Below, piece after piece: positions 30,379 through 56,090 of a stretch of 64,000 bases of DNA. Each line of letters begins with the position of its first letter. The first letter of the stretch is position 1. The notes under the pieces are model-generated. The model ran no database searches and had not been told where the DNA came from. It saw nothing but the letters and a program-made list of their open reading frames with translations. Source of the stretch: a virus; the IMG/VR virus record IMGVR_UViG_3300022074_000012, positions 30,872 to 94,871 of that record; one strand, 5' to 3'. The position numbers were made by a program, and so were the translations under genes.

Positions 30379-30555
30379 GTGAGGGTTTCCTCACCATTAG
30401 AAAGGACTCGAAATTATCGTAACCCTGACTACACAACTGCTCCCAACCAAGACCTCTGTAGGCAGTATAATACCTCGTCTTTCATATCCAGTAGTGAGGG
30501 ATTACTGGAAATAAATATCGCATCTTCCCTGATGCCCTATTTAAACGTCTTACTA
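30379..30555 (+). promoter_or_regulatory. Structured psbA 5' leader
   Basis: About 177 nt without a convincing gene. Hairpin 1 (30379-30394) has arms GTGAGG/CCTCAC with loop GTTT at the very 5' end. Hairpin 2 (30487-30509) has arms TCCAGTA/TACTGGA and a 9-nt loop holding GTGAGG (30494-30499). CCTCAC at 30389-30394 can therefore pair with either GTGAGG copy. PhotoRC RNA motifs are described upstream of psbA in cyanobacteria and cyanophages; membership here is inferred, not tested. The frame is open through to psbA, but the extra 59 residues are not D1-like. Confidence 0.6.
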
Positions 30556-55458: not shown

Positions 55459-55487
55459 TTGCATATATAGAGTGAATGTGTTAATAT
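55459..55487 (+). promoter_or_regulatory. Sigma-70-type promoter
   Basis: TTGCAT (55459-55464), a 17-nt spacer and TAATAT (55482-55487). The start would fall near 55494, right at the first TCGTTCATCC block. Confidence 0.65.
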
Positions 55488-55494
55488 AGACACA

Positions 55495-55504
55495 TCGTTC
55501 ATCC
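55495..55504 (+). promoter_or_regulatory. TCGTTCATCC block at the predicted mRNA 5' end
   Basis: The same ten bases recur at 55731-55740 just before the next small gene; a diverged AACATCC form is at 55937-55943. Only two bases separate it from the ATG at 55507. Confidence 0.5.
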
Positions 55505-55506
55505 AA

Positions 55507-55713
55507 ATGTTAGAAGTTGCATTGCTATCTTCACTTCTCTCTCAACATCATCCGTCCCATTGGACAATGACATGTTTAGAGTGGAATCAAAACAGAGCAG
55601 AGATACTCAGCGATGGGAATCTTAACTCTGATGCTCACGAGTATCTTATAGATTACTTTTATAGCAAAGTTGAAGAAAAGAATTGTAAACCTATGATGTT
55701 TGGACGCAAGTAA
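55507..55713 (+). CDS. Unknown small protein
   Basis: 68 aa, His/Leu-rich start (MLEVALLSSLLSQHHPSHW) and ending CKPMMFGRK. The last codons GGA CGC AAG TAA are the start of the repeated RNA-like element. No family recognised. Confidence 0.6.
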   Translation: MLEVALLSSLLSQHHPSHWTMTCLEWNQNRAEILSDGNLNSDAHEYLIDYFYSKVEEKNCKPMMFGRK

Positions 55714-55740
55714 GCCGACTCGGAACGGGTTCGTTCATCC
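55702..55740 (+). promoter_or_regulatory. Repeated RNA-like element, copy 1
   Basis: GGACGCAAGTAAGCCGACT, then CGGAACGGGTTCGTTCATCC. GAACG/CGTTC can form a 5-bp hairpin with a GGTT loop and CCG/CGG another small stem. It bridges the stop of one small gene and the start of the next (ATG 55743). The blocks resemble, from memory, the cyanobacterial/cyanophage downstream-peptide (glutamine) riboswitch class; not tested. Confidence 0.45.
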
Positions 55741-55742
55741 TT

Positions 55743-55922
55743 ATGTACCAGATTCTTCTTAGTCTAATAGCAATTGGAGCACCACTTGATTGTGATCATG
55801 CTGCTGAACTATTAGATATAGCAAGTAACAATCCTGATAAATCTGAGCAATTAGAGATAACAAGGGTTGTGGTAGCACATACTAATCCCATGTGTTTTTC
55901 AAAGGACGCAAAAGCCGACTGA
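55743..55922 (+). CDS. Small, possibly exported protein
   Basis: 59 aa. Hydrophobic start MYQILLSLIAIGAPLDCDHA looks like a short signal or lipoprotein-like leader; two cysteines (C17, C53). The stop TGA lies inside element copy 2. Function unknown. Confidence 0.6.
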   Translation: MYQILLSLIAIGAPLDCDHAAELLDIASNNPDKSEQLEITRVVVAHTNPMCFSKDAKAD

Positions 55923-55943
55923 AGGAACGGATTTAAAACATCC
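55904..55943 (+). promoter_or_regulatory. Repeated RNA-like element, copy 2
   Basis: GGACGCAAAAGCCGACTGAA, GGAACGG, then AAAACATCC. It shares GGACGCAA, AGCCGACT, GGAACGG and CATCC with copy 1 in the same order. A Shine-Dalgarno TAGGAG follows at 55952 before the ATG at 55965. Confidence 0.45.
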
Positions 55944-55964
55944 AACTACTTTAGGAGCAAAACA

Positions 55965-56090
55965 ATGGCACAAGTCACTTACAGAGGAGTTCAGTACGAT
56001 ACTGAAACTCGTCTACAAGAACAAAAAATCCAACAGCCTCAACAAAAACAACTTGTTTACAGGGGTGTTGAAGTTAAAGGAGGCAAGTAA
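55965..56090 (+). CDS. DUF4278-like small protein
   Basis: 41 aa with two YRGV motifs (QVTYRGVQYDTE and QLVYRGVEVKGGK) separated by a Gln-rich linker, as in the cyanobacterial DUF4278 family. Function of the family is unknown. Next gene starts in its stop. Confidence 0.7.
   Translation: MAQVTYRGVQYDTETRLQEQKIQQPQQKQLVYRGVEVKGGK

Follow-up and report, generated by a model that had tools for sequence, protein, structure and literature searches.

Two split RNA elements each enclose a small gene

How can the conserved blocks of a riboswitch come to lie on either side of whole genes? This question was raised by an earlier note on this virus DNA, which described a repeated RNA-like element between tiny genes. 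We analysed a 64 kb stretch (the window) of a 94,871-base virus record, for which the relatives found are Prochlorococcus and Synechococcus phages; the two units, the promoter before them and the gene after them are on the + strand. The sequence GGACGCAA(GTA)AGCCGACT..GGAACG is present twice, at 55702-55727 and 55904-55929, each copy overlapping the stop codon of a small gene as the note had reported, and was given by 0 of 100 shuffles of the window. We found exactly two copies of CGTTCATCC in the 64 kb, at 55496 and 55732, one upstream of each 3' half, and two matches were reached in 2 of 100 window shuffles. The note had placed CGTTCATCC at the mRNA 5' end, where it does occur (55495), and had overlooked the second copy (55731-55740). 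The first unit runs from CGTTCATCC (55496) through ORF A (55507-55713) to GGACGCAAGTAAGCCGACTCGGAACG (55702-55727), and the second from CGTTCATCC (55732) through ORF B (55743-55922) to GGACGCAAAAGCCGACTGAAGGAACG (55904-55929), followed by AGGAG and a DUF4278 gene at 55965. Because 5' half, gene and 3' half follow one another in order, the natural unit extends from CGTTCATCC to GGAACG with the gene inside, and consists of CGTTCATCC (5' half), a small gene, and GGACGCAA..CCGACT..GGAACG (3' half). The repeat unit given earlier, GGACG..CATCC, must therefore be redrawn; the CATCC at 55939-55943 is not equivalent, and a hairpin at CATCC after the second element is unsupported (mean arm of 3.58 bp in relatives, and 3.19 bp in shuffles). 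The earlier remark on whole small genes intervening between the blocks proved to be the key point: rather than lying between the genes, the RNA surrounds them, and their start codons and stop regions are located in its stems or next to them.

The 5' half of the first element, which we refer to as aptamer 1, consists of CGUUC (P1), an A, and UCC (P2) at 55496-55504, pairing with 55723-55727 and 55702-55704. The 5' strand of P2, UCCAAAUGUUA (55502-55512), contains the AUG of ORF A (55507-55509) and forms 11 contiguous pairs with the 3' strand, UGAUGUUUGGA (55694-55704). ORF A (68 aa; phrog_6471) lies inside P2, its stop codon UAA (55711-55713) is held within the 3' half, GGACGCAAGUAAGCCGACUCGGAACG (55702-55727), and its C-terminal GRK is encoded by the aptamer. 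Aptamer 2 is formed by the 5' half CGUUCAUCC (55732-55740) and the 3' half GGACGCAAAAGCCGACUGAAGGAACG (55904-55929), the latter holding the stop codon UGA (55920-55922) of ORF B. ORF B (59 aa; phrog_504) likewise lies inside P2; its product has two cysteines and a C-terminal DAKAD encoded by the aptamer. The downstream gene (55965-56090; 41 aa) is preceded by a Shine-Dalgarno sequence, AGGAG, at 55953-55957, and its product, noted earlier as a tiny YRGV peptide, passes the Pfam cut-off for DUF4278 (PF14105; 25.9 bits, cut-off 25.3).

Both elements resemble glutamine-I aptamers

The earlier note suggested the Downstream-peptide/glnA class for the element. In an Rfam search, neither the window nor its record matched the glutamine-I (glnA) model RF01739 (cut-off 35 bits); the genes of about 200 nt that fill P2 account for the models missing the element. 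By contrast, compact homologues of aptamer 2 scored 35.1-40.1 bits in 8 of 20 loci scanned. The compact aptamer 1 homologue of one locus, L010, scored 27.8 bits, under the cut-off. We rejected the Downstream-peptide (glutamine-II) model RF01704, which gave 25.5 bits with the compact aptamer 2 of L010 (cut-off 33) and nothing in the window. The proposed class thus holds for its glnA member, to which the element is nearer. Glutamine-II RNAs, which in marine cyanobacteria form the leaders of small DUF4278 genes (PMC6316151), have similar CGUUCA and GGAACG blocks, but their pseudoknot was not found here. Separately, the sole Rfam match in the window is a PhotoRC-II RNA at 30426-30522 (61.8 bits, cut-off 39).

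With glutamine-I riboswitches the window elements share P1, P2, the single unpaired A that separates them, the core, and the nucleotides reported to contact the ligand. These contacts are C1, G2, G22, C58 and G59 (PMC6698751); by our own mapping all are present in both window elements, and they are retained in 16 isolate records picked by BLAST. For the P3 helix, the Rfam alignment shows no more than 2-3 pairs. The full loop-E block GGAAGUAG together with the junction GAAG, a further RF01739 feature, is in neither element: aptamer 1 has GCAAGUA and lacks GAAG before GGAACG, and aptamer 2 has GAAG, with a loop-E block of GCAA--A that lacks GUA. These departures could mean a changed affinity or specificity. 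Tandem copies of glutamine-I riboswitches are known (PMC2864571), as are DUF4278 genes downstream of them (PMC6316151). The elements described here differ in that P2 holds a whole gene, the loop-E and junction blocks are partly altered, and the stems contain or adjoin start and stop codons. We conclude from the sequences that both elements are probably aptamers of the glutamine-I type whose halves form P1 and P2, a known class in a new architecture.

The halves pair across the enclosed gene

We scanned a viral collection with a pattern that fixed only the 3' half, yielding at least about 320 loci; the counts describe a sample of loci rather than a census, and are inflated by relatedness, which clustering lessens in part. 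Since the scans left the 5' half unselected, pairing can be fairly tested by its complementarity to the 3' half. All 169 distinct gene-filled second aptamers among the loci listed form P2 pairs 1-3, and pair 3 covaried among them (UA, CG, UG and AU). For 39 sequences (38 from cluster representatives, and the window), 94.9% of P2 cells were paired, as compared with 82.8±1.2% after shuffling and 30-56% in slid controls, and the P2 covariation score was 0.334, as compared with 0.108 for the control. Contiguous P2 averaged 6.23 bp in 57 clustered representatives and 3.74±0.22 bp with swapped partners; for 14 first aptamers the corresponding values were 5.36 and 3.89±0.38 bp. P2 pairs from the fourth onward fall within the start-codon region. 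Conserved pairing is present, across the gene and with covariation. P1 is invariant in phages and differs in a compensatory manner from that of hosts (CGUUG/CAACG). In the window, P2 of aptamer 1 is 11 bp long including the AUG, and both P2 and P1 appear in the unconstrained minimum-energy fold of a 501-nt transcript; closure of aptamer 2 is weak in silico (probability of P2, 0.16).

The adjacent halves between the two genes are also complementary in the window, and could form a local fold in which the first 3' half joins the second 5' half as a circularly permuted aptamer. In relatives, however, these neighbouring halves are often not complementary (TCT faces GAA in 42 of 168 cases listed, for instance), whereas P2 positions 1-3 are paired across the gene in every one of the relatives listed. 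A permuted fold would also leave the outermost halves, 5' of the first unit and 3' of the second, without partners, and its folding energy in the window is less favourable than that of the aptamer 1 split fold (-114.7 as compared with -123.0 kcal/mol). Because P2 covariation tracks partners across the gene, we rejected this arrangement, which we consider very unlikely.

Compact and gene-filled aptamers coexist among phages

The arrangement of a gene inside an aptamer recurs in hundreds of ocean-virus sequences. Among the loci listed (597 elements), the gap from CGTTCA to the 3' half is bimodal, being either 8-40 nt or 135-225 nt, with none intermediate. Aptamers 1 and 2 are compact and filled, respectively, in 135 of the loci listed, both compact in 74, both filled in 48, and filled and compact in 18. 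Counted from the first base of CGTTCA, the ATG of the gene-filled elements listed starts 9-13 nt downstream, with one exception. Of 190 second aptamers among the loci listed, 182 have a stop codon whose end falls 19 nt into the 3' half; first-aptamer stop codons there lie within the 3' half or at most 11 nt before it. In three loci a manA RNA (RF01745) also follows the glutamine riboswitch, ~225-240 bases further downstream (L041, 1071-1268; L086, 1674-1875; L089, 4460-4657), directly followed in L089 by a tRNA.

Conservation of the 3' core in loci picked by pattern is partly due to that selection; the 16 named phage records, chosen by BLAST and not by pattern, serve as an independent check and agree with the architectures from the scans. 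Recurrence beside small genes in other phages, a check named in the note, is seen in both sets, and relatives have the gene-filled P2. Both aptamers are compact in S-PM2, S-CREM1 and P-TIM68 and both are filled in P-HM2, P-SSM4, P-RSM4 and S-TIM5; the second aptamer alone is filled in 9 of the 16 records. A direct comparison between gene-filled (P-HM2, P-SSM4) and compact (S-PM2) isolates is therefore possible. The compact glutamine riboswitches of S-PM2 and S-CREM1 share with the window a pair of tandem aptamers before a small gene, but enclose no genes; the S-CREM1 element has been annotated as a glnA riboswitch (PMC9964418).

From the 151 genomes of a single cyanobacterial family, we rejected a host origin of the gene-filled form: RF01739 matched in 54 of them, the matches are compact where the sequence is shown, and an enclosed gene was seen in none. 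A stricter host pattern gave no match, which says little given the different host P1. A phage-like 3' half was found in only four genome contigs among the matches listed, two of them Prochlorococcus records and two unrelated; one of the Prochlorococcus contigs is also in the viral collection and is thus probably phage DNA.

In the open-access literature we found no earlier account of genes within riboswitch loops. Group I introns offer a parallel: in these structured RNAs, peripheral loops house protein genes, those of homing endonucleases. By contrast with the elements described here, an intron is a ribozyme and not a metabolite sensor, and the start codon of its gene usually lies outside the core stem.

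Enclosed genes evolve as proteins, and their mRNAs fold better than shuffles

Coding selection acts on the enclosed genes, with median dN/dS of 0.26 and 0.17. Their mRNAs also fold better than synonymous-codon shuffles (mean z of -2.55 and -1.87), in contrast to control pieces of other genes from the same contigs (n = 142; z of about -0.45; p = 3e-7 and 1e-12 versus enclosed). P2 closure was 0.78 and 0.80 with the enclosed genes, and 0.53 with synonymous shuffles, and the predicted fold of many enclosed mRNAs is a long rod that prolongs P2.

All 229 distinct enclosed proteins among the loci listed have at least two cysteines; in those that were aligned, the N-terminus is hydrophobic and the stretch from cysteine to cysteine is predicted to form a helical hairpin. 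AlphaFold models of enclosed proteins, including that of ORF A, have a hydrophobic N-terminal helix and a Cys-Cys helical hairpin, which suggests small exported disulfide-bonded proteins. A Pfam search with the enclosed proteins gave no match, and a PDB fold search gave no significant match. The C-terminus is often set by the aptamer, as GRK from the first and DAKAD from the second. One gene family occupies both aptamer positions, with both endings (L008 and L077, identical at 48 of 57 residues and at 160 of 189 bases). The enclosed genes are probably interchangeable cassettes for small, exported two-cysteine proteins.

Such exchange, and the mixture of compact and filled forms among isolates, would also be expected if the halves were DNA sites for homologous recombination of small genes, with the likeness to an RNA incidental. 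That account leaves the paired changes in P2 and the extra folding of the mRNAs unexplained, and we regard it as highly improbable; recombination may nevertheless be the way in which the cassettes moved.

A probable promoter precedes aptamer 1

The earlier note had the CGTTCATCC copy at 55495 directly following a promoter. A consensus promoter scan gave no match at 55460-55490; however, TTGnnn and TAnnnT separated by 15-19 nt occur at the corresponding place in at least 249 parsed first-aptamer elements. From this sequence and its relatives, 55459-55495 is a probable promoter (TTGCAT ... TAATAT), with its -10 within an imperfect inverted repeat, ATGTGTTAATATAGACACAT, and the RNA probably starts just before CGTTC. 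We also observed the -10 region at the centre of an inverted repeat in the window (55476-55495) and in at least 222 distinct upstream stretches of related loci. The arms vary among phages yet remain complementary, as in TAGGGG-TATAATAAT-CCCCTA and AGGTC-TATAAT-GACCT, and reach at least 5 bp in 75% of the upstream stretches listed, as compared with 25% of shuffles. The inverted repeat could be an operator family or a hairpin promoter.

A model for reciprocal control by glutamine

Taken together, we consider it probable that the leader of this phage DUF4278 gene consists of tandem glutamine-I-type aptamers, each with a whole gene as its P2, that place the enclosed and downstream genes under reciprocal glutamine control. 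The gene-in-P2 architecture is well supported; ligand binding and the direction of regulation are what we infer. We found no Shine-Dalgarno-like sequence directly before ORF A or ORF B, which suggests that the 5' half is their landing site. With one arm shared by switch and gene, closure would also lock the start signal of the gene. Glutamine binding would lock P1 and P2, bury the start codon of the enclosed gene together with its sole landing site, and so turn that gene off, with aptamer 2 favouring DUF4278 translation as the host ON switch does. At low glutamine, ribosomes would initiate on the enclosed genes, enter the 3' half and hold the aptamer open, and DUF4278 expression would be low. 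A comparison of relatives revealed no expression platform for DUF4278.

The sign of this control could be reversed, with the closed aptamer protecting or exposing the enclosed genes, so that they would be on with glutamine. Glutamine riboswitches described so far, mostly located before DUF4278 genes, are ON switches (PMC6316151), as this reading would have it. However, the start codon of the enclosed gene lies within P2 or directly next to it, so closure should hinder initiation, and we consider a reversed sign improbable.

A less improbable reading, although one we still think unlikely, dispenses with the ligand: the halves would pair around the genes as a riboswitch-derived structural clamp on the start codon that is blind to glutamine and opened by ribosomes or RNA processing. 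Pairing alone would account for the pairing, covariation, P2-length and mRNA-folding results, and both phage cores deviate from the glnA consensus in loop-E or junction blocks. Set against this, the ligand-contact positions are retained in the BLAST-picked isolates, the aptamers remain in tandem and ahead of DUF4278 genes, and compact second aptamers still score at the RF01739 cut-off. We favour a glutamine-responsive RNA. We lean, somewhat less firmly, towards the more general proposal that the gene is itself a helix arm of the aptamer, that one metabolite-dependent fold switches the enclosed and downstream genes oppositely, and that the cassettes are exchanged among phages.

Riboswitches are usually portrayed as non-coding leaders, but the sensor here seems to include a coding gene. 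Sensing and translation would then be in competition for a single RNA, which could drive two genes in opposite directions. For these phages, the arrangement points to nitrogen-state control of small proteins that are predicted to be, and probably are, exported.
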